Assembly: GCA_022821875.1 (NCBI GenBank)
Contig: JAJECV010000086.1
Coordinates: 1 to 32,213, forward strand
Direction of reading: 5' to 3'
Source: Rhodothermales bacterium
Lineage (GTDB): Bacteria > Bacteroidota > Rhodothermia > Rhodothermales > Bin80
DNA length: 32,213 nucleotides
Shown: piece after piece, positions 877 to 32,213 of the stretch
How the letters are laid out: every line of letters begins with the position of its first letter
How positions within the stretch are numbered: position 1 is the stretch's first letter
The notes under the pieces: model-generated
What the model saw: only the letters and a program-made list of their open reading frames with translations
Databases searched by the model: none
Told to the model about the DNA's origin: nothing
Position numbers and translations under genes: made by a program

Positions 877-885
877 GATTCTGGT

Positions 886-2122: not shown

Positions 2123-2203
2123 TTAACAACGGGCTATCTGACCGGTGCAGTTAGCTGGATTCCCGTTTTTCAGGATTCAGGGAACATTTTCAGCCGTAGA
2201 GCG

Positions 2204-2217
2204 CTAAACGCGTTTAG
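2204..2217. promoter_or_regulatory. 14-bp perfect palindrome (CTAAACGCGTTTAG)
   Basis: CTAAACG and CGTTTAG are contiguous reverse complements, followed by a T-rich run. It sits 39 bp upstream of the small membrane-protein start at 2257, so it could be an operator for that gene. With a zero-length loop it is a poor terminator hairpin. Confidence 0.4.
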
Positions 2218-2256
2218 TTTTATTTCTGGCATCATAACAACTCAAGTTACAAGCAC

Positions 2257-2517: not shown

Positions 2518-2990
2518 CAAGTCGGGCAACCCTCTAGAACGGATGACTTAAGAGGCATAAGCAGACGTTCGCCGCCTTTTGATTTTTCCATGCATCCAGT
2601 TTTATGCCGGATCATATTCCTTGTGCGTTAGATATTTAAGCAGTCAGGAAAGCCGGAGGAGAACTTCCCTTATTTCTTGAACAGATTTGGCGACCCCGGT
2701 TCGTCCCATACTCCATCCGCGAATATCCGCCTGTAGCCCGTGGATAAAGTATGATGACGGAGTTAGACAGTACAACTGCATGTCGTAGATGGCCAAACCA
2801 TCTATTTTTCGCCTTTTTGACACTCTAAAGGGCGAAAAAACTCTCTTCGACCCTCTTGCAAAACTCCCCATCTCGAAGATTTTTTAGTCTGGATTATTAG
2901 TTTTGCAAGAACCTCTTCTATGACTATTCTGAGCAGTTTAATCCCGAAAAGTGTTGCTCAGATCTTCCTAGACTTTATCCACGGGCTGCT
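2518..2990. other. Gene-free spacer between AbiE modules 1 and 2
   Basis: No recognisable gene. A 75-codon minus-strand frame (2644-2871) and short plus-strand frames match no family I know and lack a convincing context. The only structure I can support is the interleaved inverted repeats at 2835-2909. The direct duplication shared with module 3 begins at about 2991. Confidence 0.5.
2835..2909. other. Interleaved inverted repeats (possible pseudoknot)
   Basis: AAAAAA (2835-2840) plus TCTTCGA (2844-2850) pairs with TCGAAGA (2873-2879) plus TTTTTT (2880-2885), leaving a 3-nt bulge. Inside that hairpin loop, CTTGCAAAACT (2855-2865) is the exact reverse complement of AGTTTTGCAAG (2899-2909). The two helices interleave, the geometry of an H-type pseudoknot if transcribed. 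Function unknown. Confidence 0.4.
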
Positions 2991-3041
2991 AAACCTTTCC
3001 CATGTAAGAACACACAGGGAACAAAAACGCATGGCAGTTAG

Positions 3042-3098
3042 TATACTCCACTACTTAAAATTTGCATTTTTCGTGAATTTTTGCAGATATTCTATACC
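3042..3098 (+). promoter_or_regulatory. Bipartite promoter/operator element D, promoter of AbiEi copy 2
   Basis: Upstream hexamer TATACT (3042-3047, in the palindrome AGTATACT), -35-like TCGTGA (3071-3076), 16-bp spacer starting ATTTTTGCAG, and -10-like TATACC (3093-3098). The ATG at 3108 is 9 nt past the -10. GCAGTTA precedes the upstream hexamer and GCAGATA the -10, so the two halves resemble each other as direct repeats 51 bp apart. Confidence 0.7.
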
Positions 3099-3107
3099 TA
3101 TGGTGAT

Positions 3108-3920
3108 ATGATTACACAACTGAGTTTACCCTAGGGGCAGACCAAATTGGCTACCGTGCTGCAGAATACCGACCAGTTTGTTCGCACTGCCGATGTTGAG
3201 CGGTCTCTCAATGTCAGTCGTTCCACCGCCTCCAAGTTGCTTTCCAGATGGGCCAGTCAGCGCTGGCTAGAACGTGTTGGCCCAGGAGTCTATACAGAAA
3301 TTGATCTTAGCCTAGTTGATGCCGGAGCGGTACTGAAAGATTCTTGGAATATCGTGCCGGAATTATTTGCGCCTGCATATATTGGTGGACTATCCATGAT
3401 TCAACACTGGGACCTTACGGAACAGATCTTTCATCCCATATTCGTAGTCACGGGCCGGCCCGTACGATCAAAGAAACAGAGAATCCTCGGTTTGTCATAT
3501 ATATTCAAGCATATTCGTCCAGATAAAATTTTTGGACTTGAGTATGTGTGGTACGAAAACATAAAGATCGCGATCTCAGATCTTCCAAGAACGATTGTAG
3601 ACATTTTTGATGATCCCTTGTTCGGGGGTGGAATAGATCATGTGATTTCGTGCTTTGACGAATACACACGCCATGACGGCAGGCAGGATGAAAAGTTGAT
3701 CTCCTACGCAGAGCGCCTCGGCAATGGAGCCGTCTTCAAACGCTTAGGCTTTGTGGCAGAGCATATGCCGGACTGTACCTATCTCGTTGATGCCTGTAAG
3801 AAGAGACTGACAAAGGGCAATGCCAAAATTGATCCAACCTATTCATGCCCTCGACTAGTGACGAGATGGCATCTTTGGGTTCCCGAGAATGAGTTTCAAT
3901 ACGAAAGAGATGGTTACTAA
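3108..3920 (+). pseudogene. abiEi: AbiEi-family antitoxin, copy 2, nonsense codon near the start
   Basis: This is the same length and layout as copies 1 and 3 (271 codons from ATG 3108), but codon 9, CAG in copy 3, is TAG here (3132-3134). The leaderless ATG would give only an eight-residue peptide (MITQLSLP). The remaining 262 codons are otherwise open and closely match copy 3, so the mutation looks recent. Translation could restart at TTG 3147, giving a 257-aa protein that lacks the first part of the winged-helix domain and starts just before VLQNTDQFVRTADVERSL. Such a product would probably bind DNA poorly but would keep the C-terminal region. I call it a pseudogene with moderate confidence; internal initiation or suppression is possible. 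Confidence 0.72.
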
Positions 3921-4563
3921 AACAGAAATTAGGCGAGTCAGGTATTTGTGTGGACTAGACCCCCATGTTATTGAGAAAGATTATGTGCTTGGATGGGTTT
4001 TAGCCGGTATCTATCATCATGCTTCACTGAAGGATCACTGGATCTTCAAGGGAGGAACCAGTTTCCATAAATGTCATTACGAAACCTTTCGGTTTTCCGA
4101 AGATCTTGATTTCACGATTACCGAGCTATCCCATCTCAATCGTGACTTTCTTGTTGAAACGTTCAGCGAAATCAGCGACTGGATATTTTATGCGACCGGT
4201 TTTGAAATTCCGAAAAGATTGCTCAACTTTGAAATCTATACAAATCCCCGCGGCTCGGAATCTTGCAAGGCCAAAATAGGTTACCGAGACCCCATCAGCC
4301 CCCGCATGGGATACCGCTCACTTCCACACCTTAAGATTGACCTGACGTTCGACGAGGTGGTTGCTGCTGTACCACCGATTGAACACATGATCCGGCATAC
4401 TGCCAGTACTCCCGTTCCAGTAATGAGGTTTTCCCTGCTACGGTGTACACCGTGCTTGTACATGTGCTCAATTAGTATATTGGAATTTCACTATATCCCG
4501 TTTTTTGTGAATTTTTGCAGTTATAGTATACTCAAATGCTACGAATCAACGCTATTTGCGTAA
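3910..4563 (+). pseudogene. 3'-truncated AbiEii toxin, module 2
   Basis: From the ATG overlapping the antitoxin stop (3910), or from ATG 3889 in the same frame, the first 150 or so residues match the intact copy 3 toxin. They include the nucleotidyltransferase signature GGTSFHK...SEDLDF and LKIDLTFDEVV. After position 4362 the sequence changes to a tail (EHMIRHTASTPVPVMRFSLL) unrelated to the intact toxin. The frame then runs through element E and stops at 4561-4563. The E-K and RDLYD motifs of the nucleotidyltransferase and the whole C-terminal WYL-like part are absent, so it should be inactive. The tail is shared with the module 1 remnant, so the rearrangement predates the separation of those two. 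Confidence 0.8.
4476..4532 (+). promoter_or_regulatory. Bipartite promoter/operator element E (orphan)
   Basis: Upstream hexamer TATATT (4476-4481), -35-like TTGTGA (4505-4510), 16-bp spacer ATTTTTGCAGTTATAG, and -10-like TATACT (4527-4532). This is the best match to a sigma-70 promoter of the six. It lies inside the open tail of the truncated module 2 toxin, 151 bp upstream of element F, and serves no recognisable gene. Confidence 0.65.
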
Positions 4564-4682
4564 CTGATCTGGAGTCCATCAAGTATGAATTCAGTTTCAC
4601 GAGTCTCCCTTATGGCCATGTTCAGGGCCCGAAACCTATCCCGGGTAAGAACACACGGGGAACAAAAATCCATGGCAGTTAG

Positions 4683-4739
4683 TATACTCTATTATGCAAA
4701 ATTTACGTTTTCTGTGAATTTTTGCAGATATCTTATACC
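4683..4739 (+). promoter_or_regulatory. Bipartite promoter/operator element F, promoter of the intact AbiE operon
   Basis: Upstream hexamer TATACT (4683-4688), -35-like CTGTGA (4712-4717), 16-bp spacer starting ATTTTTGCAG, and -10-like TATACC (4734-4739). The antitoxin ATG (4749) is 9 nt past the -10. This element should drive the antitoxin-toxin pair. AbiEi proteins are known autorepressors that bind repeated sites, so the two half-elements are the natural operator candidates. Confidence 0.72.
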
Positions 4740-4748
4740 TACAGTGAT

Positions 4749-5561
4749 ATGACGACACAACTGAGTTTACCCCAGGGGCGGATCAAACTGGCCGCTGTAT
4801 TGCGAAATAGTGGTGGTATTGTTCGCACTGCCGATGTTGAGCAGTCTCTCAATATCAGTCGTTCCACCGCCTCCAAGTTGCTTTCCAGATGGGCCAGTCA
4901 GCGCTGGCTAGAACGTATTGGCTCAGGAACCTATGCAGCAATTGATACTTGCTTTGTTGACCGCGGAGCGGCACGGTATGATTCTTGGAGTATCGTGCCA
5001 GAATTATTTGCGCCTGCATATATTGGTGGACTATCCATGATTGAACATTGGGACCTTACGAAACAGATCTTTCGTCCCATATTCGTGGTCACGGGCCGCC
5101 CCGTACGATCAAAGAACCAGAAAATCCTTCGTTTGCCATATATATTCAAGCATATTCGTCCGGATAAAATTTTTGGACTTGAATATGTGTGGTACGAAAA
5201 CATAAAGATCGCGATCTCAGATCTTCCAAGAACGATTGTGGACATTTTTGATGATCCCTTGTTCGGGGGTGGAATAAATCATGTGATTGAGTGCTTTGAC
5301 GAATACACACGCCATGACGGCAGGCAGGATGAAAAGCTGATCTCCTACGCAGAGCGTCTCGGCAATGGAGCCGTCTTCAAACGCTTAGGCTTTGTGGCAG
5401 AGCATATGCCGGACTGTACCTACCTCGTTGATGCTTGTAAGAAGAGACTGACAAAGGGCAATGCCAAAATTGATCCAACCTATTCATGCCCCCGACTAGT
5501 GACAAGATGGCATCTTTGGGTTCCCGAGAATGATTTTCAATACGAAAGAGATGGTTACTAA
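4749..5561 (+). CDS. abiEi: AbiEi-family type IV antitoxin, copy 3 (intact operon)
   Basis: A 270-aa protein with an N-terminal winged helix (about residues 8-65: QGRIKLAAVLRNSGGIV, SISRSTASKLLSRWASQ as NISRSTASK..., then ERIGSGTYAAID) and the AbiEi C-terminal region (YIGGLSMIEHWDLTKQ, FGLEYVWYENIKIAISDLPR). In characterised AbiE systems this protein represses the operon cooperatively and blocks toxicity of AbiEii without forming a stable complex. ATG 4749 is preferred over the upstream in-frame TTG at 4722, because 4722 lies inside the promoter spacer and 4749 is 9 nt past the -10. The toxin ATG (5551) overlaps this gene's stop codon region by 11 nt, typical of translational coupling. It is the only copy with both an intact promoter-start arrangement and an intact partner. 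Confidence 0.92.
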   Translation: MTTQLSLPQGRIKLAAVLRNSGGIVRTADVEQSLNISRSTASKLLSRWASQRWLERIGSGTYAAIDTCFVDRGAARYDSWSIVPELFAPAYIGGLSMIEHWDLTKQIFRPIFVVTGRPVRSKNQKILRLPYIFKHIRPDKIFGLEYVWYENIKIAISDLPRTIVDIFDDPLFGGGINHVIECFDEYTRHDGRQDEKLISYAERLGNGAVFKRLGFVAEHMPDCTYLVDACKKRLTKGNAKIDPTYSCPRLVTRWHLWVPENDFQYERDGY

Positions 5562-6747
5562 GAACGAAATTCTGAATGTCAAAGATTTGTGCGGACTGAA
5601 CCCCCATATTATTGAGAAAGATTATGTGCTTGGGTGGGTTTTAGCCGGTATCTATCATCATGCTTCACTGAAGAATCACTGGATTTTCAAGGGAGGAACC
5701 AGTTTCCATAAATGTCATTACGAAACATTTCGGTTTTCCGAAGATCTTGATTTTACAATTACCGAGCCATCCCATCTCAACTGTGACTTTCTTGTTGAAA
5801 CGTTCAGCGAAATCAGCGACTGGATATTTTATGCGACCGGTTTTGAAATTCCGAAAAGACTGCTCAACTTTGAAATCTATACAAATCCCCGCGGCTCGAA
5901 ATCTTGCAAGGCCAAAATAGGGTATCGCGGCCCCATCAGCCCCCGCATGGGATACCGCTCACTTCCACGCCTCAAGATTGACCTGACGTTCGACGAGGTG
6001 GTTGTGCTGCCACCGGTCGGGCGCACAATTCATCACCACTACAGCGATAATCCACAAGAGGAACCCTTGGTCAGATGCTACCCTCCAGAGGAGGCTTATG
6101 CGGAAAAAATCTGCGCTTTGGGACAGCGTGCAAAGGCACGTGATCTGTATGATGCCATCAATATATTCCGAAGTAATCAGGAACGGCCTGACCTATCTGT
6201 TCTGAATGACACAATCCGTAAAAAATGTGCTCACCGTGGTAATCAGCCCCCAACACTTGCTGATGTGCAGGCAAAAAGATGGGATCTCGAAAAAACCTGG
6301 CCCCCGATGCTGAGCCATCAGCTTCAGACACTTCCCCCGTTTGAGTCTTTTTTCCATGCACTGCCTGAATTTTTTGACTGGCTTGAAACCGGCACACTCC
6401 CCTCGCTGCCTGCCATTAATCAGATGGCAGCGGGGGACGAGATCATCCGAGAGCCTACACTGAAGCTGCCCGTCAATTTTAACAAACAGGTATCCGTTGA
6501 GGCCATCCGGTTTTCAGGAGTTAACTATCTGTGCGCTGACATCCAGTACAGAAAATCCACGGAGCGCATTGAGCCCTACTCACTGCGTCGAACAAAAGAT
6601 GGCCATCTTATACTTCATGCCGTCAGGGCTTCCGACGGGCAGCTTTGCAGTTATCAGGTTGACGAAATCGACGACGTGACGGTCACTCAACAGAGTTTCG
6701 ATCCTCGTTATCTGGTTGAATTACGCCCCAGGATCCAACCGTCATAA
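5551..6747 (+). CDS. abiEii: AbiEii-family nucleotidyltransferase toxin with C-terminal WYL-like domain
   Basis: A 398-aa protein from ATG 5551, which overlaps the antitoxin stop; ATG 5530 in frame is an alternative. The nucleotidyltransferase core shows G48-G-T-S followed by S63-E-D65-L-D67 (metal-binding aspartates), KIDLTFDEVV near residue 145, and a downstream EEAYAEKICAL (E185, K186) and RDLYDA (R197, D198). This is the DNA polymerase-beta-like fold of AbiEii; family members transfer nucleotides to RNA and related MenT toxins modify tRNA. Residues about 314-390 (EAIRFSGVNYLCADIQY, IEPYSLRRTKDGHLILHAVR, DEIDDVTVTQQSFDPRYLVE) look like a WYL-type ligand-sensing domain, which makes the protein longer than the roughly 300 residues of a minimal AbiEii. 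It is the only complete toxin of the three modules. Confidence 0.9.
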   Translation: MVTKNEILNVKDLCGLNPHIIEKDYVLGWVLAGIYHHASLKNHWIFKGGTSFHKCHYETFRFSEDLDFTITEPSHLNCDFLVETFSEISDWIFYATGFEIPKRLLNFEIYTNPRGSKSCKAKIGYRGPISPRMGYRSLPRLKIDLTFDEVVVLPPVGRTIHHHYSDNPQEEPLVRCYPPEEAYAEKICALGQRAKARDLYDAINIFRSNQERPDLSVLNDTIRKKCAHRGNQPPTLADVQAKRWDLEKTWPPMLSHQLQTLPPFESFFHALPEFFDWLETGTLPSLPAINQMAAGDEIIREPTLKLPVNFNKQVSVEAIRFSGVNYLCADIQYRKSTERIEPYSLRRTKDGHLILHAVRASDGQLCSYQVDEIDDVTVTQQSFDPRYLVELRPRIQPS

Positions 6748-12316: not shown

Positions 12317-14156
12317 TTTTTTACTGCTCATTGGCCTCACCGCCCCGGCACAGGCCCAACCCCTGCTCAGCGATCCCCCATCCTGGGCGGACGAGGCGAT
12401 CTGGTATCAGATCTTCGTGGAACGATTCCGCAACGGAGATCCCTCGAATGACCCCACGCCGGAGGATATACGCGGTTTCTGGTTTGATTCACAGCCGGAC
12501 AACTGGGCACCGACCCCCTGGACCCATGACTGGTATAAACAGGAGGACTGGGCCATTGAGAATGACAAAGATTTCTATACCGCCGCGCAATGGCGGCGCT
12601 ACGGCGGGGATTTGCAGGGAATTCTGGACAAGCTGGATTATCTGAAGGATCTGGGAGTCAATGCGCTTTATCTGAATCCGATTAATGATGCTCCCTCCCT
12701 GCACAAGTTTGATGCGCGTCATTACCGTCATGTAGATCGTAATTTTGGCCCTGACCCGGCCGGGGACCGTGAGATTGCCGAGTCAGAGGATCCTCTGGAC
12801 CCGGATACCTGGCAGTGGACGGCCGCGGACCGCCTCTTTCTGAAACTGATCCAGGAGGTGCACGCCAGAGACATGCGGATCATTCTGGATTACTCCTGGA
12901 ATCACACCGGTGTGCGGTTCTGGGCCTGGGAGGATGTGCTGGAGCATCAGCAGGAGTCCGCGTTCGCAGACTGGTACGAGATCAACGAATTTGACGATCC
13001 AGCCACCCCCGACACAAACGAGTTTTCCTACGACGGCTGGTTAGGCGTAAAATCCCTCCCCGAACTGGCAAAAATCAACGTCCCGGAGGATCACACGCAC
13101 GGGGCACATGAAGGAGACCTTCATCCCGGCCCCAAAGCGCATATCTATAACGTTACCCGAAGATGGCTGGATCCCAACGGGGATGGAGATCCGGAGGATG
13201 GACTAGACGGATTCAGGCTGGATGTCGCAGAAATGGTTCCCCTCGGGTTCTGGCGGGACTACCGCAAATTCGTTCGGAGCATCAACCCGGAAGCCTACCT
13301 TGTGGGAGAGGTCTGGTGGGATTCATGGCCGCACCGGATGGCAGATCCGGTCCCCTGGGTTCAGGGAGATATATTTGATGCGGTGATGAATTACCGATGG
13401 TACATGCCAACGCGCAGTTTCTTCGCACAAACGCCCCCGAATCTGAGCGCATCCGGGTATGTGGCGCATCTGGATTCTGTCATGGCGGGGATCCCGAATC
13501 GCTTCTGGAATGCCATGATGAATCTTACTGCCAGTCATGACACACCTCGAATCAGCACTAGCATCTACAACCCGGCGCTCTATAAATATCACCAGAACCC
13601 CAGAGGAAATCCTGATTTCAAGGTGAATCGCCCGGATGCACGAACAAGGGCAATCCAGGAACTGATTCTCGTACAGCAATTCACCTGGCCCGGTGCCCCT
13701 CATATCTGGAACGGGGATGAGATGGGCATGTGGGGCGGCGATGACCCGGATGTGCGGAAGCCGCTCCTGTGGTCCGACTACCGCTTTGAAGATGAGCGTA
13801 CGCACCCGTCTGGTCTGGACAGACACCCGGATGTGGTTGTGGCGGATCACCAGCTGACCGGCCTCTACCGGCAGTTGATTGCGCTCCGCAAAGCAAACCG
13901 GCAACTGTTTATTCACGGAACCATCAAGTGGCTCACCGCAGACGATGAGCGCCGGTTACTTGCTTATGAGCGGCAGCTAAATGGAGAGCGTGCAGTGGTG
14001 GTCTTCAACGCATCCGACATGGCACAAGAACTGATCATCCCCGAGGGAAGCTATCGGCAGCTCTACCCGGCCGGTTCCGCAGACGCAGGGAATTCCTTGA
14101 CCATGCCTCCACGATCTACCCGTGTCTATTTGTCCTCCCCGGAAACCCCAAACTGA
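12300..14156 (+). CDS. Secreted GH13 alpha-amylase-family glycoside hydrolase
   Basis: A 618-aa exported enzyme from ATG 12300 (MRICVNFLLLIGLTAPAQAQ signal peptide); ATG 12291 is a weaker alternative. The TIM-barrel GH13 motifs are all present: region I DYSWNHTG, region II GFRLDVAEM (nucleophile D308), region III GEVWWD (acid/base E337) and region IV ASHDT (D414). A C-terminal beta-domain (RAVVVFNASDMAQELIIPEG) closes it. The N-terminal PSWADEAIWYQIFVERFRNG and the aromatic-rich insert DNWAPTPWTHDWY resemble the cyclomaltodextrinase/neopullulanase/maltogenic amylase branch, so cleavage of alpha-1,4-glucan oligosaccharides in the periplasm is likely. Its start overlaps the cupin gene, indicating one transcript. 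No SusC/SusD pair is nearby, so this is not a complete starch locus. Confidence 0.93.
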   Translation: MRICVNFLLLIGLTAPAQAQPLLSDPPSWADEAIWYQIFVERFRNGDPSNDPTPEDIRGFWFDSQPDNWAPTPWTHDWYKQEDWAIENDKDFYTAAQWRRYGGDLQGILDKLDYLKDLGVNALYLNPINDAPSLHKFDARHYRHVDRNFGPDPAGDREIAESEDPLDPDTWQWTAADRLFLKLIQEVHARDMRIILDYSWNHTGVRFWAWEDVLEHQQESAFADWYEINEFDDPATPDTNEFSYDGWLGVKSLPELAKINVPEDHTHGAHEGDLHPGPKAHIYNVTRRWLDPNGDGDPEDGLDGFRLDVAEMVPLGFWRDYRKFVRSINPEAYLVGEVWWDSWPHRMADPVPWVQGDIFDAVMNYRWYMPTRSFFAQTPPNLSASGYVAHLDSVMAGIPNRFWNAMMNLTASHDTPRISTSIYNPALYKYHQNPRGNPDFKVNRPDARTRAIQELILVQQFTWPGAPHIWNGDEMGMWGGDDPDVRKPLLWSDYRFEDERTHPSGLDRHPDVVVADHQLTGLYRQLIALRKANRQLFIHGTIKWLTADDERRLLAYERQLNGERAVVVFNASDMAQELIIPEGSYRQLYPAGSADAGNSLTMPPRSTRVYLSSPETPN

Positions 14157-14205
14157 TGGAATATGTCCCAATCTCTCATCACAATCGTACTCACCAGAAT
14201 ACTCC

Positions 14206-17200
14206 ATGCGTGATCTAAAATCACAGGATGCCCAGAGGGTTCAGGACACCGCTCAAGATCCGATACCGGAGAACGTTCCGCTCCCAAAAGGCTGGGCGCA
14301 GGCGATCAAATCGCTCAAAGAACGACTCATTGATACCAGCAAGCGGAACCGCCTGATCCACTCCCCTGTCGGCAAAGACCGGGGAAAACATCTTGATATC
14401 ATCGATGAACGCTCCGATGAGATCTTCAAGCTGCTGGTGCAGAAAAGGAAGAAGATGCAGTTCCTCCATTCCGGGGACGGATATGACGAGCCGGACCTTA
14501 TGGAGAACATCTTTATTCCAGACCCGGACCCTCCCGGCACCAGACATACCGATCTCAAATTGCAGACGCGCCTGACCAAGGATGCACTGCATAAGCGCCT
14601 CCTGCAGCTTTATCGTGATTCAAACAGTTCCATTGAGGAACAGGGGGCAAATCCCCTCTTCCTCGCGCTTGGGTTCGTGCGCTGGTATGAGAGTGATTCC
14701 TCCGCAATCAAACGCTTTGCGCCACTGGTGCTGCTCCCGGTTGAACTCATACGGGAAGGGGTCAAAGACAACTTTAAACTGCTGCTTCGGGATCAGGATC
14801 TGGAACCCAACCACTCCTTTGATGCCCTTATCAAGAGCGAATTTGAGGTTCGGCTCCCGCCATGGCCGGAAGGAGAGGAATGGCTGCCGTCCGGGTATTT
14901 TCAGCAGGTCAGTCATCTGGTCAGCAAGCGTGAGAGGTGGTGCGTATATGCCGATGTGATCCAGCTGGGCTTCTACTCATCCGGCAAATTTCTCATGTCC
15001 AAAGATCTGGATAATGCAGAACCAACCGACCTGATGCAGCAGCTCTTGTGCGGCGGCTTTGGGGATGGTTCTCCCCTGTTTGATCCAGATGAGAACCTTG
15101 ATGAGCGGTATACGAACCCCCAGGATCTTGGGCACATCATGGAAGCCGATGCATCGCAGACCCGCGTCATTGCCGCGGCACGGGACGGCCGCAGCATGGT
15201 CGTTCAGGGGCCGCCCGGTACCGGTAAGTCCCAGACCATTGCCAATATCATTGCCGTTTCCGTTCGGGACAATCAGAAGGTGCTGTTTGTGGCAGAAAAG
15301 CGGGCAGCGCTTGAAGTGGTCTATGATCGGCTGGAAGCGTGTGGGCTTGGCCCTCTGTGTCTGGAAATGCACTCCACCAAAGCCAAGAAAAAAGCCGTCT
15401 ATCAGAACCTGGGAGCGACCCTGGACCTGGGAGAACCCAAGGTGAATGACCACTCCGAATACGAACGCCTGAAGGCCGTGAGGGATGAATTGAACGATCT
15501 GTCCAGACAGCTTCACACGGTGGAAGACATCAGCGGCGAAACCCCCTACCTTGTCATTGGTCAACTGACCAGACTCATGGCCATCATCGCAAACGAAGAC
15601 CTGCCAAGACCGGACTACCAGATCAACGACATTGCAACCTGGGACCGTGAAACCGCACAGGTCGCCCGAAAGCAGGTGGCGCAGCTTGCCGGCTTAACCC
15701 GGCAATACGGACCGGAAGGGTCTCATCCCTGGCGAGGAGCCAACCGGAAAATGACCCCCATGGACCGCGACCGGCTCAGGGACAAAGTGATAACACTTCG
15801 AGGCTGCTTTCAGGAACTGAGAACCTGTCTGGAAACGGCATGCTCCGCGCTCAGCCATGACGCGGAGGGAGATCTGGTTTTTGTGGACCGCACCGTGACC
15901 CTGCTTCGCGCCATGAGAGACAGACCGGCGGAGGTAGATGATCTGGTGACGCGGGAGGAGGTGATGCGCCATGCAGGCAGACTGCAGGAGTTATTTGAGA
16001 CGATCCGGAACGAGCAGGCAGCCCGTACCGAGTTGGAAGCGTCTATGATGCCGAGCGCTTTCGAACGGGACTGGAGCACGGAACAGCGGGAGATTTCCAG
16101 ACGCCGGCATTCCTTTTTCCGATGGCTGAGCGGCTCCTACCGGAAGGCCGTAAAAGCGCTGAAGGAAGCCGCAAAAGACCTGCCCAGATCAACTACGGAC
16201 CGGCTGAAACTCCTAGACACCCTCATTCATCACCGGTCGCAGCTGCAGGAAATCGAGGAGCAGCGATCTCTGGGAGAACTCCTCCTTGGCCCGTTATGGC
16301 GGGGATGGAAGACCGATGTGACCGAGGCGCTGGCATCGGCCGGGTGGATCAACGAACAAATCAGACTGCTCGGCACATCCGATGCACTCCAAACGCAGAT
16401 TGCGAACTGGCCTGAAGATGCCCGTGCGGGTGAGCTTGCGGACCGGTTGCAGGATTGTGTCCACACGGTGGAAAAGAAGTGGGATGAGGTGGCCGGTCTG
16501 TGTGATCTGGATTTCCAGCAGGCCTTCGGGCAGGACACGATCCGCAGCGTACCGCTCGCCACGATCATGACGCGCATGTCTCTCTGGGAAAGAGACCCTG
16601 AAGGGCAGGACATATGGATCCAGCTGCATGACCGTGCGAATGCGGTCAGTGAGAACGGTCTGGATGAACTTCGCATCCGGCTGGCCGATGGCAGGCTTGC
16701 CCCGGAACATGCCTGTGACACGTATGACTATATCCGCGCCGAGGCGCTCTATCAGCGGTTTGAAAAGCTGAACCCCAATCTGCGCCAAATGAGCGGCCAA
16801 GAGCGCTCCGCACTGGTGGAAGAGTTCAAAAACCTCGATTCGGCTCCGTTGATGCTCAGTGCACAGGAAGTCATGTCTGCTCATTATGCATCCATTCCAG
16901 AAGGTACGCGCGGAAAAATGGGGGTGCTTCGCGGAGAGGCAAAAAAGAAGACCCGGCATATGCCGCTGCGCAAGCTTCTGAAAGAGGTGGGGGATGCGGT
17001 GCAGACCATCAAGCCGGTCTTTCTGATGAGCCCCCTGTCGGTTGCCCAGTATCTGGATCCGGACGGGCTGACGTTTGACCTGCTGCTGATTGACGAGGCC
17101 AGTCAAGTACGGCCTGCGGATGCGATTGGTGCCGTAATGCGGGCAAAACGCACGATCATTGTCGGGGATCAGAAGCAGTTGCCGCCAACGACCTTCTTTG

Positions 17201-18987
17201 AGAAACTGGTCACAATTGAGGAGGATGATGATGTGAAAAAGGATGTGGAAGAGGTGATTGCCGGACAGGTTGCAGATATGGAGAGCATCCTTGCACTCTG
17301 TGAGGCCCGAAACATGCCCGGCTGTATGCTGAAGTGGCACTACCGGTCGCAGCATGAATCGCTGATTGAAGTCTCCAATCAGGAGTTCTACGAGAACCGG
17401 CTCGTCTGCCCGCCCAGCCCGGCCGAGTCCACGGCCGAACTGGGACTCTCCTTTGAATTTGTCGGCGGAACCTACTACCGGGGCAGTGGCAAGGGAAATA
17501 ATCCACAGGAGGCCGAGGCGGTCATGAAGGCCGTTTTGGAGCACGCTAGAACGCGGCCAGATGAATCGCTTGGTATTGTGGCAATGAGTCAATCCCAGCA
17601 GACTACGATTCAGAATGAGGCAGAGCGGATGCGGGCCCTTCACCCGGAGCTCAACTCCTTCTGCAGCGAGGCAAAAGAGAGTGCCTTCTTTGTGAAGAAC
17701 CTGGAAACCGTGCAGGGAGACGAGCGGGATGTGATTTTGATCTCCATCGGATACGGGAGATCCGAAGACGGGCGGCTCTTTCAGAATTTTGGCCCCGTCT
17801 CCAATGATGGGGGTGAGCGGCGGCTGAATGTGCTGTTCACCCGGGCAAAAAAGCGGTGCCGCGTTTTCTCCTCCATCCGGCACACCGATATCCAGCACGA
17901 TAAAGCACGGCACCGGGGGCCCTACATGCTCAAGACCTTCCTCAAGTATGCCGAAACCGGCGAAATGGATGTCCCCGTCATTACCGGACGGGAACCCGAC
18001 AGCCCCTTTGAGGAGGCGGTCGCCAATGCGATCCGCAGGTACGGATACGAAGTCGACTATCAGGTCGGCTCGGAAGGGTTTCTGATTGACCTTGCCGTCA
18101 GGGATCCAGACCGGGAGGGAGCATACATTCTGGCCATTGAATGTGACGGAGCCCGGTACCACTCATCCCACTGGGCACGGGAGCGGGACCGGATGCGCCA
18201 GACACTTCTGGAGGGGAAAGGCTGGACCTTCCACCGTATATGGAGCACCGACTGGTTTGCGCATCCCGACACCGAAACCGAGCGGGCCGTGGAAGCCATT
18301 CGACAGGCGTGTGTGCAAAGGCCTGTAAATACTTCCAGGGCTCAGCGCCAGGCTGTGCTGGATCCGGTGATTGTGAGAAAAAAGAAATCCGGACAGCCCC
18401 CGAAGGAGTCCAGGAAATACAAAGAATTTGATTCTGATAACGGGTATGAGAAGTATGTCATGCGGACGTACCTTGACATCCACGAAGCTCACATCAGGGA
18501 TGTGGCCGACTGGATTGCAGCGATGGTGGAGGTGGAAGGGCCGGTTCATCAGGATCTCGTGGTTCGTAAAACACGGGAGGCCTGGGGATACGAGCACACG
18601 GGAAAACGCATCCGGGAAAAGATCCACGACGCACTCAGGTATGCGGTGCGCCGGGCAATGGTGGAGCGGTGTGATCTGGATCCGAATTTCCTGCAGAAGC
18701 GCGGCAGAGAGGTGCAGGTGCGAAACCGCAGCAGACTGGAGAACCCTCTGCTGAAAAAACCGGAAATGATTCCGCCCCGGGAGTATCAGAAAGCGATCCT
18801 GCGTGCGGTGGAGCGGTGCCTTGCGATCAGCCCGGAAGAATGCGCAGTGGAGGTTGCCCGCATGTTCGGCTTTCGATCCACCAGTGCAGCCTTCAGGAAG
18901 CAGGTGACCGCACAGATCTCTCCGCTGGTCCGGAACGGACATCTGACTGCCCAGCCGGACGGAACACTCCGCCAGCCGGACAACTAA
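14206..18987 (+). CDS. hheA: Hhe-type anti-phage protein: DUF4011, SF1 helicase, Vsr-like nuclease, DUF3320
   Basis: A giant single protein (1593 aa from ATG 14206; an in-frame GTG at 14122 lies inside the amylase gene and is less likely). The N-terminal DUF4011 region is seen in LKERLIDTSKRNRLIH and NPLFLALGFVRWYES. The SF1/Upf1-like helicase follows, with Walker A GPPGTGKSQT (near residue 335), a long helical insert, Walker B LLIDEASQVRPADA (near 960), GDQKQLPPT, WHYRSQHESLI, and VQGDERDVILISIGYG with NVLFTRAKKR. Residues about 1265-1365 form a Vsr/DUF559-type nuclease (FLIDLAVRDP and LAIECDGARYHSS, with FHRIWSTDWF). The C terminus has a DUF3320 domain (EYQKAILRAVERCLAISPEE). This order matches the single-gene Hhe defence system reported from defence-island screens, a match made from memory. 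No partner genes or methylase adjoin it. Confidence 0.9.
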   Translation: MRDLKSQDAQRVQDTAQDPIPENVPLPKGWAQAIKSLKERLIDTSKRNRLIHSPVGKDRGKHLDIIDERSDEIFKLLVQKRKKMQFLHSGDGYDEPDLMENIFIPDPDPPGTRHTDLKLQTRLTKDALHKRLLQLYRDSNSSIEEQGANPLFLALGFVRWYESDSSAIKRFAPLVLLPVELIREGVKDNFKLLLRDQDLEPNHSFDALIKSEFEVRLPPWPEGEEWLPSGYFQQVSHLVSKRERWCVYADVIQLGFYSSGKFLMSKDLDNAEPTDLMQQLLCGGFGDGSPLFDPDENLDERYTNPQDLGHIMEADASQTRVIAAARDGRSMVVQGPPGTGKSQTIANIIAVSVRDNQKVLFVAEKRAALEVVYDRLEACGLGPLCLEMHSTKAKKKAVYQNLGATLDLGEPKVNDHSEYERLKAVRDELNDLSRQLHTVEDISGETPYLVIGQLTRLMAIIANEDLPRPDYQINDIATWDRETAQVARKQVAQLAGLTRQYGPEGSHPWRGANRKMTPMDRDRLRDKVITLRGCFQELRTCLETACSALSHDAEGDLVFVDRTVTLLRAMRDRPAEVDDLVTREEVMRHAGRLQELFETIRNEQAARTELEASMMPSAFERDWSTEQREISRRRHSFFRWLSGSYRKAVKALKEAAKDLPRSTTDRLKLLDTLIHHRSQLQEIEEQRSLGELLLGPLWRGWKTDVTEALASAGWINEQIRLLGTSDALQTQIANWPEDARAGELADRLQDCVHTVEKKWDEVAGLCDLDFQQAFGQDTIRSVPLATIMTRMSLWERDPEGQDIWIQLHDRANAVSENGLDELRIRLADGRLAPEHACDTYDYIRAEALYQRFEKLNPNLRQMSGQERSALVEEFKNLDSAPLMLSAQEVMSAHYASIPEGTRGKMGVLRGEAKKKTRHMPLRKLLKEVGDAVQTIKPVFLMSPLSVAQYLDPDGLTFDLLLIDEASQVRPADAIGAVMRAKRTIIVGDQKQLPPTTFFEKLVTIEEDDDVKKDVEEVIAGQVADMESILALCEARNMPGCMLKWHYRSQHESLIEVSNQEFYENRLVCPPSPAESTAELGLSFEFVGGTYYRGSGKGNNPQEAEAVMKAVLEHARTRPDESLGIVAMSQSQQTTIQNEAERMRALHPELNSFCSEAKESAFFVKNLETVQGDERDVILISIGYGRSEDGRLFQNFGPVSNDGGERRLNVLFTRAKKRCRVFSSIRHTDIQHDKARHRGPYMLKTFLKYAETGEMDVPVITGREPDSPFEEAVANAIRRYGYEVDYQVGSEGFLIDLAVRDPDREGAYILAIECDGARYHSSHWARERDRMRQTLLEGKGWTFHRIWSTDWFAHPDTETERAVEAIRQACVQRPVNTSRAQRQAVLDPVIVRKKKSGQPPKESRKYKEFDSDNGYEKYVMRTYLDIHEAHIRDVADWIAAMVEVEGPVHQDLVVRKTREAWGYEHTGKRIREKIHDALRYAVRRAMVERCDLDPNFLQKRGREVQVRNRSRLENPLLKKPEMIPPREYQKAILRAVERCLAISPEECAVEVARMFGFRSTSAAFRKQVTAQISPLVRNGHLTAQPDGTLRQPDN

Positions 18988-21907: not shown

Positions 21908-23350
21908 ATGAAGTCGTTAATCAATAACTTATCTATCACGGCCGTGCTTTCGGTCATCTTTTTAGGAGCGGGAGTACCGTTATCCGAATCCCACTCCCTT
22001 CGTGCGCAGGTTCCCAAAGTCACTGCCGGGGCAGTCACCGGTGAGGATGGGAAAGTGAATGAAGATTCACTCAAAGCTTTTGTTACCTGGGCTACCTCGG
22101 TATTTGAAGGGATAGAGACCGATGAGGAGCGTACTAAATTGCTCGGTGAAGTATATGAGGAAGGCAGTGATTACAACTCAGGCAAGATTTATGTAGTTCT
22201 ATTTGCAACGGGCGGTACTGAAGGCAGTGATGGTAGAATTATCTATTATGGTAAGGATCCGAACTTGAATGGTTTGCCCGCGCTGGATGTAAAGGATGAT
22301 GAGGGCAATGAAGTTGTTAAGAAAATGCTGAAAGCAGAAAAGGGCGAAGAAGCAATCCGGGTGGAGTATTGCTGGAATGATCCGAGGGATAATTCGGACA
22401 ACGCGCCAGGTGCCACCTGCAAGTCCAGTTATGCGATGCGTTACGCATCTTCATTGACTGACAGTGATCTTGTTGTCGTTGGCGGATATTATCAGGATTT
22501 AAGTTTTTTAACGGTAACGCTTCCCGATGATCTTGAATATCCTGCTGTTTCCGCCTCAGACGTGAAAGACAGAGAGACCCTGAAGCAATTTGTAGAGGGG
22601 ACGGCGACATGGGTGACCCAACTCTTTGAATCGCTAGGAATTGCAGCTTCGCAGATGAGGGTGGAACTTAGGAAAGATGCTCAAGACGGAGGATTTTTCA
22701 AAGACGGTCTGGTCTATGTTTATATCATAACGAAGGGAGGGTATGTAATCTTTCACGGATTTGATGCGTGGCGTGAGGGTCGGACCGTCATCAATAATCC
22801 CGATCTGCGAGGAGACTCTACGTTCGTACGAAGAATCATCAATACAGCTCTGGACGGGGGAGGATATGTGGACTATTACTGGAACAATCCTGATGACCCA
22901 AACGATGACCCTGATCCAGATATTCTCCCGTTTGACCCGAATGCGGGAACGCTCAGGACGGCCTACTCGCAAACTCTTGAAATAGGGGGGATAACAGGAG
23001 AGCGGATCATCGCAGGTGCCTTCTTCCCGAGTGTCATAACCTCAGTAGAGGACGAAATCACCGAACTTCCGACAGAGTTTGTGCTCCATGGAAACTATCC
23101 TAATCCCTTTAATCCATCCACGCGGATCCAGTTTGATCTTCCTGAGAGAGCACAGGTAACGTTACAGGTTATGGATGTGTTGGGGCGTAAAGTGATAGAA
23201 TTACCCGCGCAATCATTTGAAGCGGGTGCGAATCACACCATCGAGTTGAATGCGATAAGCCTTGCGTCTGGAACTTATTTATACCGCATGACTGCCACGG
23301 GAGCAGAGAGCAGATATGAGAGAACGGGATTTGTGACGTTGGTAAAGTAA
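21908..23350 (+). CDS. Secreted tandem Cache-like protein with T9SS sorting domain
   Basis: A 480-aa exported protein with an N-terminal signal (about residues 1-34). Two related segments follow. The first (about 55-205) has KIYVVLFATGGTEG, IRVEYCWNDP and CKSSYAMRYASS. The second (about 215-370) has LVYVYIITKGGYVIFHG, GGYVDYYWNNPDD and LRTAYSQTLEI. The pattern of a V-Y-F/I sheet, G-x-V-x-Y-x-W-x-N-P and a closing S-Y-A resembles the Cache_2 ligand-binding fold seen in chemoreceptors, here duplicated. The C terminus (about 390-480) has NYPNPFNPSTRIQFDLP, VLGRKV and GTYLYRMTA, the type A sorting domain that directs T9SS secretion and surface anchoring. There is no transmembrane helix or signalling domain, so it would be an extracellular ligand binder. 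It is monocistronic. Confidence 0.8.
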   Translation: MKSLINNLSITAVLSVIFLGAGVPLSESHSLRAQVPKVTAGAVTGEDGKVNEDSLKAFVTWATSVFEGIETDEERTKLLGEVYEEGSDYNSGKIYVVLFATGGTEGSDGRIIYYGKDPNLNGLPALDVKDDEGNEVVKKMLKAEKGEEAIRVEYCWNDPRDNSDNAPGATCKSSYAMRYASSLTDSDLVVVGGYYQDLSFLTVTLPDDLEYPAVSASDVKDRETLKQFVEGTATWVTQLFESLGIAASQMRVELRKDAQDGGFFKDGLVYVYIITKGGYVIFHGFDAWREGRTVINNPDLRGDSTFVRRIINTALDGGGYVDYYWNNPDDPNDDPDPDILPFDPNAGTLRTAYSQTLEIGGITGERIIAGAFFPSVITSVEDEITELPTEFVLHGNYPNPFNPSTRIQFDLPERAQVTLQVMDVLGRKVIELPAQSFEAGANHTIELNAISLASGTYLYRMTATGAESRYERTGFVTLVK

Positions 23351-28394: not shown

Positions 28395-30869
28395 TTAGAA
28401 TTCAATTCGGTAGGTTACAAAGGGGATCACGGGAAATGCGCTGATCTGCCTGAACTCAAGGAGCTCCTCATTTTGCCAATTCTTTCTGACCTCCAGAAGG
28501 AAGGGATTTTTTCGATTGTACGCATTATAGCCCCCAAAAGATAAGGTCCGATACCCCCACCGAATATTTCGCTTCAGATGCATGGACAGATCAATCCGAT
28601 GATGAGCACGCACACGATAGGAATTACGTTCCCCATACACACTCGGCACTTCGGCCCGGTTTCGACTAAAGAGGTCTTGTCCCCCTCCGGCGTCGTGTAC
28701 TACACCATAAAATCTGCCAACTGGAAGCCATGTGGCCTGTCCTGTGCCGTAAACCCAGACGGCAGAAATCTCTATGGCATCGGTCCAGTGATAGCTGGCT
28801 ACAATTGAAACGTCATGCAGACGATCAAATCTGTAGGGAAAGGTTTCACCGCCATTGAGTTCTGAAAACTTGCGCTCTGATTTTGTCAGGCTGTACCCCA
28901 CCCAGCCGGTGATCCGCCCAAAATGCCTCCGAACGAATACTTCTCCCCCATACGACCAGCCTTTTCCGGTCGTGATCCTTTCCTCCCAGCTATCCCCTGA
29001 AATGCCATATCGGCTCACCCCCTCTTTATACTCAATCAGCGAGTTCATTCTCTTGTAGTACCCCTCCAGTGAAACCTCATATTGTCTGTTCTCTGAATTC
29101 CATGCGAACCCCGTCGCGACTTGATGTGCACTTTGAGGACGAACCTGATCGGTAGCCGGAACCCATAAGTCCAGGGGAAGCGAAAGTCCACTGGCCGCAG
29201 ACAGCAGATGCGTGTATTGCTGCATGGAGGCATACGAAACTTTCATGGCTAGATTCGCGGCCATAATCCATCGTGCACTGAACCTCGGCTGCAGGGAACT
29301 GTATGCCCGGTCTTCAACGAAGAATGTGGAGGCTCGCAGGCCGACATTCATGGTTAAAACAGGGGAAAGGCGTAATTCATCCTCTACATAGGCATGTGCT
29401 TCCACGCTTCTTGTCAAATAATCTGGCGCATAGACGGTATCAACCGGTATAATGTTCTCACCGGATTGCCGCTCTTCAAATGTCCCTGTATGATAGGCAT
29501 GCATAATGCCACCGAGTCCAAATCGAATATAATGTTGAGGATTGGGGATAAAATCAAAGTCTATCCGGCCGATCACATCTGTGATGCCGGATGTAAAATT
29601 GCTTTCTTTAAAGAACAGTGTCGTGGAACGATCATTCACCGGTTGTTGAATCACTTCACGGTCGGTTCCAAGCCGATAGCGCGTGAGCCCCAAAAGCGTA
29701 TTTGAGAAGAATCGAGATCCATATACGCGGTTCCACCGGGCCGTAGCCGTCATGTTACGCCATCCGAGATCTCCCTCAGAGTACTCATCCTCGCTATCGT
29801 TCAGATCAAATCGATCCTGAGTATATCCGCGGTCCCGGCCCGTATAGAAACTCAGATACAGACGGTCCTTTCCAGACGCAATATAGTTGATCTTCGCACT
29901 GACATCATAAAAATAATATCCCCCCCGCGCATCCTCGTCAAGGAACGGGTACACCAACAGGTCCAGATAGGTGCGTCTTGCGGCGACGATAAACGATGCT
30001 TTATCTTTCCTGATTGGTCCCTGTACGGTAAAGCTGGAAGCAACCACGCCTACCGCTGCCGTTCCCTCAAACTCCTGCAGGTTCCCCTCTTGCATGCTCA
30101 GATCCACCACCGAGGATAACCGGCCTCCATACCGGGCCGGAAACCCTCCTTTAATCAGCGTCACATCCTTGATCGCGTCTCCATTGAACACGCTCATAAA
30201 ACCGAACAGGTGGCTGGCATTATAGACCGTAACCCCGTCCAGCAGGATCAAATTCTGATCCGGTGCTCCTCCGCGAACATAGAGTCCACTGGTTCCCTCC
30301 CGCCCGGATTGGACCCCCGGAAGGAGTTGCAGTGTCTTGAGGACATCAACCTCACCAGCCAGGACCGGCAGTGTCCTGATGGTTGCCACCGGCAGATTCA
30401 CCTCTCCCATCTGAACCGATTCCACGATTGACTCCCCGACGGCAACGACCTCAACATCATCAAGCCTGGTGGTCACAGATAGAAGTTCAATCGTTAATTG
30501 GACATCCTCGGTCAACTTTTGATTGACGGTCACAGGCGCATAACCGATATGCGAAACGAGGAGGCTTACCGAGTCGGCATTTACGGTCAGACTAAAGAAG
30601 CCGTACCGGTTTGTTGTTGTGCCGATACTGAACTCCGGCGCATAAACGGCCGCCCCAATCAGATTCTCACTGCTTTCCGCATCCACAACAAACCCGCTGA
30701 TGGTGTGCGTATTGCTTTCTTGTTCAACCTCTTGACCAGGAGCCTGATAAAAGAACGGTAAATATTCAACTTTATCCCGGCGTGGAAAATCATAGGCTTC
30801 GGCTTCGAGTGGCAGGCACGCGAAGAAAATAAGTATCAGGGATACCGGGTAATACGGTTTCGGAAACAT
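28395..30869 (-). CDS. TonB-dependent receptor with carboxypeptidase-regulatory-like N-terminal domain
   Basis: An 824-aa outer-membrane receptor from ATG 30869, which directly precedes the signal peptide (VSLILIFFACLPLEAEA); ATG 30884 would add five residues. After a short linker comes a carboxypeptidase-regulatory-like beta-sandwich (about residues 55-135: ISGFVVDAESSENLIGAAVY, TTTNRYGFFSLTV). A plug domain follows (about 160-270) with SGLYVRGGAPDQNLILLDG and KGGFPARYGGRLSSVVDL, then a barrel ending FVTYRIEF. It is the first gene of a two-gene unit with the DUF4249 lipoprotein. Its plug is closely similar to that of the divergent partial receptor at 31389, showing duplication. The substrate is not known. 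Confidence 0.92.
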   Translation of the reverse strand: MFPKPYYPVSLILIFFACLPLEAEAYDFPRRDKVEYLPFFYQAPGQEVEQESNTHTISGFVVDAESSENLIGAAVYAPEFSIGTTTNRYGFFSLTVNADSVSLLVSHIGYAPVTVNQKLTEDVQLTIELLSVTTRLDDVEVVAVGESIVESVQMGEVNLPVATIRTLPVLAGEVDVLKTLQLLPGVQSGREGTSGLYVRGGAPDQNLILLDGVTVYNASHLFGFMSVFNGDAIKDVTLIKGGFPARYGGRLSSVVDLSMQEGNLQEFEGTAAVGVVASSFTVQGPIRKDKASFIVAARRTYLDLLVYPFLDEDARGGYYFYDVSAKINYIASGKDRLYLSFYTGRDRGYTQDRFDLNDSEDEYSEGDLGWRNMTATARWNRVYGSRFFSNTLLGLTRYRLGTDREVIQQPVNDRSTTLFFKESNFTSGITDVIGRIDFDFIPNPQHYIRFGLGGIMHAYHTGTFEERQSGENIIPVDTVYAPDYLTRSVEAHAYVEDELRLSPVLTMNVGLRASTFFVEDRAYSSLQPRFSARWIMAANLAMKVSYASMQQYTHLLSAASGLSLPLDLWVPATDQVRPQSAHQVATGFAWNSENRQYEVSLEGYYKRMNSLIEYKEGVSRYGISGDSWEERITTGKGWSYGGEVFVRRHFGRITGWVGYSLTKSERKFSELNGGETFPYRFDRLHDVSIVASYHWTDAIEISAVWVYGTGQATWLPVGRFYGVVHDAGGGQDLFSRNRAEVPSVYGERNSYRVRAHHRIDLSMHLKRNIRWGYRTLSFGGYNAYNRKNPFLLEVRKNWQNEELLEFRQISAFPVIPFVTYRIEF

Positions 30870-31388
30870 ACACAGCATAAGCAATTGGATTTAGAAGTGC
30901 TGATGTTTTTTGGGTGGATGCCAGAGTTTGATTTTCTGGTCAACCTGCCTCGTGTCACGGCTCAAATTCACTCAATATACATGGGTTTACAGAGGGAAAT
31001 GCGTGATTGTTTCATCTTCACAAAAAATTCACATTTTCAGTAAAAAATCCGTATGGCATCCTTTGGATCCCGTCATTGGAGACCTCTCTGGATCAAAACT
31101 CAGACTTAATACTTGCCGTGATTTCTCAAAGCGGGAGAACTTTTTGACTCATCCCTTCATTATCCGGGCTTTGCCACGGGTATAGCCGGCAAAGATTATC
31201 TTTCTACTCGCAGATGAGTGCAAAACTTCAAGATGGCTTAACGCCCTGTATTCCGCTTATGCGGCAGCACGAACTGCTGAGTTTCGCGTATTCTCCCGAA
31301 GCATTCACCAATTCAGGTCGCATGGAATAAAACAGATACTGATTGGAAACATTGGTTCTCCGTATTCTATCTGTTAACGTTTTATTGC
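30870..31388. other. Divergent intergenic region between two receptor genes
   Basis: About 520 bp, A+T-rich, holding the promoters of both receptor genes. I see no gene. CACAAAAAATTCACATTTTC around 31019-31038, read on the minus strand, recalls the TGTGAATTTTTG core of the AbiE elements but lacks the spaced hexamers, so I do not count it as a seventh copy. No promoter could be assigned with confidence. Confidence 0.4.
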
Positions 31389-32213
31389 ATGAATCGCTTA
31401 TTGCGTTCACTGATCTTGGTCCCATCTTTGATCTTGCTCATCGGAGTGGATCGGCTGTCTGCACAGGAGGTCGTCGTCAGTGGCTATGTCACCGATGCCG
31501 ATAACGGGGAGGCGCTGGTCGGAACCAATCTCTACGAGATCTACATCCAGAGCGGAACGACTACAAATCAATACGGATTTTTCAGTCTTACCGTCCCCGG
31601 TGACTCTGCGGTAATCCGCTTCAGTTACCAAGGATACGAGACCTTAACGCTTGTTTTTTACGCCCCCCTGCAGGAACTCCAACAGGTTGAAATGCAGCCT
31701 GCCATCGTGGAGTACGATTCTCTGCTCGTCGTTGAGGCAGGTGAATATGAAGGACTTCACCAACAGGTTCAAATGAGCAATGTGAAAATCTCCATGTCAG
31801 AGATTGAAGCACTGCCGGCTCTACTTGGAGAGACGGATCTGCTAAAAGTCTTCCAGTTGATGCCGGGGATTCAGTCCGGCACGGAAGGCTCCACCGGACT
31901 GTATGTGCGCGGCGGAACTCCCGGGCAAACCCTCATCCTGCTTGACGGGGCCACGGTATACAACGCGGGGCACCTGTTTGGTTTTATGTCCACCTTCAAT
32001 ACCGATGCGATCAACAGTGCTGAGTTGTTCAAAGGAGGTTTTCCTGCCCGGTATGGAGGACGGCTGGTGGGCGTACTGGATATCACCATGCGGGAGGGAA
32101 ACCGAAAAGAGTTTGAGGGGCGGGGAGCGGCGGGACTGCTGGCCTCACGGATTACGGTAGAAGGGCCGCTTATAAGAGATAAAAGTTCGTTTATTATTTC
32201 CGCTCGCAGAACC
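31389..32213 (+). CDS. TonB-dependent receptor, 3' end beyond the window
   Basis: The frame is open from ATG 31389 to the window edge (275 codons), so the gene is partial. It has a signal peptide (LILVPSLILLIGVDRLSAQ) and a carboxypeptidase-regulatory-like domain (about residues 28-105: VVSGYVTDADNGEALVGTNL, TTTNQYGFFSLTV). The start of the plug domain follows, with TGLYVRGGTPGQTLILLDGA and KGGFPARYGGRLVGVLDI. These segments match the receptor at 28395-30869 almost position for position, so the two are paralogues transcribed divergently. By that symmetry a DUF4249 lipoprotein gene would be expected downstream, outside the window; that is a prediction. Confidence 0.9.
   Translation, partial: MNRLLRSLILVPSLILLIGVDRLSAQEVVVSGYVTDADNGEALVGTNLYEIYIQSGTTTNQYGFFSLTVPGDSAVIRFSYQGYETLTLVFYAPLQELQQVEMQPAIVEYDSLLVVEAGEYEGLHQQVQMSNVKISMSEIEALPALLGETDLLKVFQLMPGIQSGTEGSTGLYVRGGTPGQTLILLDGATVYNAGHLFGFMSTFNTDAINSAELFKGGFPARYGGRLVGVLDITMREGNRKEFEGRGAAGLLASRITVEGPLIRDKSSFIISARRT

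Follow-up and report, generated by a model that had tools for sequence, protein, structure and literature searches.

The gene at positions 21908 to 23350 of the window (the whole 32,213-nucleotide stretch that we analysed, from a Rhodothermales bacterium) encodes a protein in which two tandem Cache units are joined to a type IX secretion system (T9SS) sorting domain instead of to a receptor. We consider it fairly likely that this protein is a small-ligand binder, displayed on the cell surface or released from it, with short carboxylates as its probable ligands; its export, surface location and ligand are what we infer from the sequence. Our comparisons further place it in a family of Cache proteins that lack receptor parts, extend over several phyla and vary in their C-terminal module.

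Architecture of the tandem Cache protein

The ORF listing and its translation gave a 480-aa ORF with an ATG start on the + strand (21908..23350); the window is one complete contig, G000:C93, from a draft genome of 3.68 Mb. Pfam and NCBIfam scans outlined a tandem-Cache protein with a T9SS tail. A signal peptide is predicted at residues ~1-34 (21908..22009, +), with a hydrophobic core at residues 3-26 and a cleavage site judged by eye to lie near AQ/VPK, a call made from hydropathy alone. On the Kyte-Doolittle scale residues 3-26, that is, the signal peptide, were the sole stretch hydrophobic enough for a helix; no flanking membrane helices were seen over the whole protein, and the Pfam and NCBIfam scans found no output signalling domain in the ORF. 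Both results agree with the first-pass annotation, which had described an exported polypeptide devoid of membrane helix and signalling domain. The mature start, PKVTA, is nearly invariant across 13 rows of alignment A1.

Two Cache units follow, as that annotation had claimed. Unit 1 covers residues 36-204 (22013..22519, +) and unit 2 residues 212-378 (22541..23041, +), both delimited with the unit HMM. Pfam reported dCache_2 (PF08269; E 1e-16, 61.4 bits vs a gathering cut-off of 26.5) and sCache_2 (PF17200; E 2.8e-15, 57.0 bits vs 25), each over two stretches. In single comparisons of unit 1 with unit 2, hhalign returned a probability of 99.6% with E 2.9e-24 and BLASTP an E of 9e-8. By these sequence comparisons the duplication is real, and the profile comparison that had been named as its possible refutation upheld it. 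The motifs from which the fold had first been called are less evenly shared by the two halves: only unit 2 has an exact G-x-V-x-Y-x-W-x-N-P (GYVDYYWNNP), the corresponding stretch of unit 1 being IRVEYCWNDP, and the SYA of unit 1 is AYS in unit 2. Unit 1 also holds C155 and C171 (22370..22420, +), the only two cysteines of the protein. Their columns are invariant in all seven rows of alignment A4, and the first column hardly varies across the 13 rows of A1; their positions and conservation point to a probable C155-C171 disulphide.

The T9SS type A C-terminal sorting domain occupies residues 397-480 (23096..23347, +) and scored above the curated cut-offs of both PF18962 (Por_Secre_tail, 34.4 bits vs 27) and TIGR04183 (35 bits vs 23). 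The sorting domain proposed from the letters alone stands, and the source genome encodes the T9SS sortase PorU (NF033707, 975.9 bits vs a cut-off of 420). At least four further ORFs of this genome (on G000:C140, C43, C10 and C123) have tails 71-74% identical to this one, as if T9SS tails were drawn from one genus-wide pool.

Rfam had no match anywhere in the 32-kb window, no conserved upstream element was seen in an alignment of eight upstream stretches (some with approximate start coordinates), and no relative of the protein was encoded on any viral contig. Elsewhere in the window, PADLOC reported a run of five consecutive genes (829-6747), three AbiEi-like and two AbiEii-like, the first AbiEii-like gene being only 224 aa long and matching just the initial part of the profile. 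It also matched a 1621-aa protein (14122-18987) to its candidate system PDC-S37 (1655.7 bits); DUF4011, helicase and MTES_1575 nuclease domains were recognised in that protein.

Both units resemble solved Cache domains

The full-length model was modest (mean pLDDT 67.0, pTM 0.49, 7 sequences), and unit 1 modelled alone (m80c04dc3f7a1) was better (pLDDT 80.0, pTM 0.82). DSSP of the predicted models gave each unit a PAS-like sheet with a preceding helix. With VIA-align, unit 2 superposed on 4k08 (Z 11.1, 3.2 Å, 120 residues), 2qhk (Z 11.0) and PscD 5g4y (Z 10.6), with 119-124 residues aligned over the listed structures, and unit 1 on 4k08 (Z 10.1, 3.8 Å, 123 residues) and 5g4y (Z 9.1). Foldseek was less discriminating. 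The full-length model had 10 matches at E ≤ 0.001, in which PAS domains of HIF-3a:ARNT (rmsd ~22 Å) and GbpA ranked above TlpB, itself fourth, and 4exo was tenth; the unit 1 model had nothing at E ≤ 0.001, and PAS folds and Cache domains were mixed at the top of its matches. A search of the PDB with profile A1 retrieved TlpB (E 8.5e-6), PscD (1.3e-4) and 4exo (6.8e-4), together with 2qhk and 4k08, all at E ≤ 0.014. Three fumarate reductase chains in the same search (E 0.017-0.018) were taken as chance. Sequence and models together indicate a Cache fold in both units, and a fold unlike the PAS/Cache sheet, which would have spoken against the first reading, did not emerge (VIA Z 9-11 against solved Cache domains).

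In dCache domains one long N-terminal helix is common to both modules; in the full-length model, of modest confidence, helices precede each unit (residues 52-67 and 72-83, then 222-256). The tail region (~389-480) aligned in VIA-align with Ig-like sandwiches, including the mirolase C-terminal domain and PorU.

The carboxylate pocket is largely retained

PMC5062169 describes propionate in the PscD pocket as hydrogen-bonded by Tyr90, His103, Tyr143 and Lys156 and sandwiched between Trp92 and Trp145, with Tyr90, His103 and Lys156 conserved across the family seed; TlpB is described there as retaining Tyr90 without a ligand contact at that position. We anchored the pocket columns on unit 2, placing His103 to Lys156 through the PscD alignment and Tyr90 through the 4exo alignment, not that of PscD, and surveyed 128 aligned unit rows, which come from the 67 ORFs that were left of 86 once duplicates had been removed. 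At the positions of Tyr90/His103/Tyr143/Trp145/Lys156 unit 1 reads Y/Y/Y/W/K and unit 2 Y/H/Y/W/R; each unit retains three of the four PscD residues that hydrogen-bond the carboxylate. The Trp92 position is V in unit 1 and Y in unit 2.

The gammaproteobacterial tandems are uniform, with Y/H/W/W/K in all 14 unit 1 rows (12 with a barrel and two without) and Y/H/Y/W/K in all 14 unit 2 rows. Among the T9SS-tailed proteins of the Rhodothermales family f1, unit 2 (n=10) has Y in 9, H in 10, Y in 10, W in 9 and R in 9 rows, and of the 15 unit 1 rows, some of them fragments, nine have H and five have Y at the His103 position. Dadabacteria carry Asn at the His103 position of unit 2 in 14/14 rows. The later pocket columns are gaps in several groups (units 1 and 3 of a second family, f15, and many Dadabacteria unit 1 rows) because the domain match ended early. 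Since three of the four PscD residues are retained, C2-C3 carboxylate-type ligands are the most likely on this sequence evidence, that is, acetate-, propionate-, lactate- or pyruvate-like carboxylates. The Tyr at the His103 position of unit 1, the Arg at the Lys156 position of unit 2 and the Asn of Dadabacteria make a single common ligand doubtful.

Distribution of the family

We searched for relatives with the Cache part alone, since the full-length query could not discriminate: its T9SS tail has matches in 59/59 genomes. The Cache part was matched in 12 of 114 genomes of the order and, at E ≤ 1e-8, in 15 of 395 genomes of the phylum sample (nine within the order, the other six being weak partial matches). 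The source genome holds three Cache-T9SS proteins, two of them on contig C136 (C136:13894-15303, - strand, and 30238-31683, +), and genome G004, a near relative or near-copy of the source, carries a protein 97% identical to ours. Homologues within the genus and a second family, f15, answer the first-pass suggestion to look for further proteins joining Cache to a sorting domain.

One scan of named genomes yielded eight loci, six in Rhodothermales/Bacteroidota MAGs and two elsewhere, in a gammaproteobacterial MAG (44%) and a Dadabacteria MAG (32%). Only the last two carry these phylum names in their records; the further genomes called gammaproteobacterial or Dadabacteria here were drawn as relatives or class members of those two MAGs. 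Sixteen of 100 Dadabacteria genomes matched, including the first 13 listed, which have 2 to 14 match segments (not genes) each in genomes of 1.3-1.9 Mb, a strong expansion of Cache units that takes in G115 and its relatives G264-G275. A single protein can hold up to four Cache units. Short Cache ORFs without a tail (L129, L132 and L133, 172-211 aa) occur in other Bacteroidota.

No neighbour gene was common to more than six of the 21 regions compared, most neighbours being unannotated, and a conserved operon was ruled out on that count. On G000:C136 a 3440-aa type I polyketide synthase (L172:3321-13640, - strand; KS-AT-DH-MT-ER-KR-ACP then KS-AT) sits between the two other Cache-T9SS paralogs of the genome, and a homologous synthase adjoins a Cache gene in G007:C5.

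The C-terminal module changes with the lineage

Homologues of the source genus align through residue 480, the end of the T9SS tail, which exists in a divergent version in G005. Proteins of family f15 have two or four Cache units and a Pfam-confirmed tail in L073 and L077, the latter with a Lamin Tail Domain as well; in L078 the contig end cuts the ORF before any tail. PorU was above cut-off in the four Rhodothermales tested (G000, G009, G012 and G054), with no match in the two gammaproteobacterial genomes and the one Dadabacteria genome tested (G114, G119 and G115).

In 28 of the 32 gammaproteobacterial tandem loci examined, some of them near-copies of each other, the units are followed by an autotransporter-like barrel. 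The barrel form also occurs in Rhodothermales G009 (locus L067), with a broken copy over two contigs in G012. PF03797 matched none of 12 family barrels and OMP_b-brl two of the 12 (best E 0.0051); TIGR01414 gave 14.9 bits in L089, below its cut-off of 16, and no match in L067, and no PDB chain matched the barrel at E ≤ 1. Of the 12 loci that PF03797 had picked out, the A3 profile built on the barrel recovered eight, with E between 1.2e-21 and 2.7e-50 for this small set, among them five of the nine that lie above the PF03797 cut-off; the four it missed were L142, the strongest, L143, L145 and L151. The last residue of complete barrel members is aromatic. One Cache protein, L103 (L149 of the PF03797 set), has a PF03797 domain above cut-off. 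The source genome itself, its T9SS notwithstanding, has ten PF03797 autotransporter matches, nine of them above cut-off (three only jointly with neighbouring stretches) and eight lying on ORFs 1700-3430 aa long. TamL is reported to stand in for the TAM component TamA in Bacteroidota (PMC12045153), which bears on the assembly of the barrel form in this phylum.

Dadabacteria proteins end differently, with a hydrophobic C-terminal helix in all 17 de-duplicated ORFs, preceded in ten of them by the motif G[GA]C[AS]x[AS]. One such tail recurs 6-14 times per genome in 7/7 genomes of this group and is absent from G114 and G000. This recurrence suggests that the GGC-plus-helix tail is a signal of general use, for sorting or for anchoring; the NCBIfam CTERM models had no match in five proteins of this type (L112, L114, L122, L086 and L120).

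Probable transfer of the tandem and proposed exchange of the module

Over the tandem, the barrel-bearing L067 of G009 is 61.6% identical to gammaproteobacterial L084. Its identity to the T9SS rows of A1 is lower, at 41.2-46.0% for ten rows, of which three come from G004, and 32.9% for G005. This difference argues for cross-phylum transfer accompanied by a module swap. A chromosomal neighbour on the L067 contig is 78-93% identical within the genus (91-93% to G003 and G007) and 34-35% identical to its gammaproteobacterial counterpart, which assigns the contig to Rhodothermales; the G+C of the L067 stretch (0.517) is close to that of the 32-kb source contig (0.523) and not to that of L084 (0.671). 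Contamination as the origin of the G009 barrel form was ruled out by the neighbour identity and the G+C.

We built three trees, none of which holds L084 (its twin L087 was removed as a duplicate), L090 or L093. In the first, of 45 rows and including the long-branch row L070, the placement of L067 was not resolved. The 34-row tree, which dropped L070, L075, L078, L103 and seven of the 14 Dadabacteria rows, joined L067 with the T9SS rows at 96/99, while the alternative of L067 with the gammaproteobacteria was not rejected (AU p 0.119). The 43-row tree, from which the f15 rows and all Dadabacteria rows but four were additionally dropped, grouped L067 with the Rhodothermales T9SS clade at 100/98 (T9SS clade alone 100/100) and nested both within the gammaproteobacterial rows (94/99, not starred), while monophyly of the latter was not rejected (AU p 0.217).

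Cross-phylum transfer of the barrel form is well supported by the sequences, whereas its direction is unproved. We infer that an autotransporter-like fusion, common to Gammaproteobacteria and Rhodothermales, came first and that in the Rhodothermales line a T9SS tail would later have taken the place of the barrel. Four of the 32 gammaproteobacterial loci lack the barrel (L157, L102, L090 and L100), their ORFs stopping where it should start; in L090 the contig ends shortly after the stop. In two of these loci, from G779 and G252, the DNA beyond the Cache/barrel junction is 97% identical although the Cache parts belong to different clades, which suggests recombination at this junction in gammaproteobacterial loci. 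Sponge symbionts of different lineages exchange genes, attachment proteins included, according to PMC8163846.

A probable surface binder and its alternatives

The Sec machinery would export the protein, and the type IX system would then recognise its C-terminal domain and carry it outside. Two sCache_2-type pockets would thereby be exposed outside the cell, and the protein may bind and present, or sequester, its ligand at the cell surface. With neither membrane helix nor output domain, it should not signal in the manner of a Cache receptor. Host-interface recognition and carboxylate capture are our leading guesses for its use to the cell, sequestration being a further option.

Part of the evidence would also suit a surface adhesin or recognition protein, whose Cache units bind a protein or the host, the pocket being a relic, and aid recognition or retention in an animal host. 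Some Thaumarchaeota of sponges show an enrichment in Cache domains, for which a part in recognition of the host has been proposed (PMC7848895). The units are repeated up to four times in a protein, and the match segments of the Dadabacteria relatives reach the numbers given above. The structures that unit 1 matches include the complex of animal Cachd1 with FZD5 (Z 8.9), as might be the case for any Cache domain. Labels in the records of some named relatives (RHO1, SB0661) probably mark them as sponge MAGs. RHO1 probably refers to Rhopaloeides odorabile, a sponge sampled in PMC8163846. Against the adhesin, the pocket residues are conserved in most units with filled columns, unexpectedly for a relic, and we regard this explanation as rather unlikely, if the most serious competitor. 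A decoy or extracellular effector that sequesters a signal from the host or a neighbour would fit an export tail without an output domain and the absence of a neighbour gene common to most loci; nevertheless, the barrel and C-terminal-helix forms of the relatives would hold the units on the cell, which favours display over release and leaves the decoy improbable.

The same proteins could instead be loaded with ligand and serve as partners of a membrane sensor, as periplasmic binding proteins do for some receptors. The Cache fold and the kept pockets speak for this, but MCPsignal was found in none of ten genomes (six Rhodothermales, two gammaproteobacterial and two Dadabacteria), which makes a chemotaxis role or a chemoreceptor partner unlikely, and the loci, with mostly unannotated neighbours, have no gene common to most of them. 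We give this explanation little credence, and the surface sensor partner of the first-pass annotation, understood as a chemoreceptor partner, becomes unlikely with it. Least probable of all is an ordinary periplasmic soluble Cache protein whose tail goes unused: the short tail-less ORFs of other Bacteroidota offer a precedent, but here the tail exceeds two curated cut-offs, is aligned to its last residue among genus homologues and occurs together with PorU.

Favouring the surface-displayed or released binder, we also put forward, tentatively and at less than even odds, a wider proposal. At least three phyla, probably in large part sponge symbionts, may share a surface-displayed receptor-free Cache protein, obtained partly via horizontal transfer, with each lineage using an export route of its own, by way of a T9SS tail, an autotransporter-like barrel or a membrane anchor at the C-terminus. 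In organisms without chemotaxis receptors, such proteins would bind or present small carboxylates or host molecules at the host interface and sense nothing for the bacterium.

Comparison with known systems

The closest likeness is to the sCache_2 domains of chemoreceptors (PscD 5g4y, Adeh_3718 4k08, V. parahaemolyticus 4exo/2qhk and TlpB 3ub6-9), with which the units share the fold, the profile match and most carboxylate contacts. Those proteins, however, are membrane receptors with an output domain; here there is neither, and two tandem units precede a T9SS tail. With T9SS type A cargo (TIGR04183/PF18962) our protein has in common a sorting domain over both cut-offs and PorU in the genome, but its passenger is a Cache pair. 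The barrel relatives recall type Va autotransporters (PF03797) in that the passenger precedes a C-terminal domain with an aromatic end, homologous to eight of 12 proteins found with PF03797; unlike these, their own barrel is matched by PF03797 in 0/12 cases and falls just under the TIGR01414 cut-off, and the passenger is Cache.

A literature search, mostly without subscription journals, found no work joining "cache domain" with "type IX secretion", no such cargo and no swapped delivery modules on a Cache tandem; "cache domain" and "autotransporter" co-occur in PMC13090378, which treats a different subject. The surface Cache proteins of sponge-symbiont Thaumarchaeota, with their proposed host recognition, are similar in setting. 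The passages on Cache in that work (PMC7848895) deal in Pfam-domain counts and contain no delivery modules, tandem family or cross-phylum kinship, and the six Cache terms and accessions that we looked for are absent from its main text. Each part of the protein is known, and the sponge-archaeal enrichment of Cache was already published; what is new, as a variant, is how the parts are combined and that one delivery module stands in for another.

According to the 2016 account of the superfamily (PMC4822843), every protein in which Cache had been identified has an output domain, and the C-terminal membrane helix is the sole path by which a Cache domain outside the cell can signal. The present family breaks this rule: the pockets are for the most part preserved without a receptor, and the delivery module depends on the lineage. 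Its members form a circumscribed group in which to study the role of receptor-free Cache on the surface of probable sponge symbionts and, if our wider proposal is true, Cache would be a general surface-binding module, beyond its part as a sensor input.
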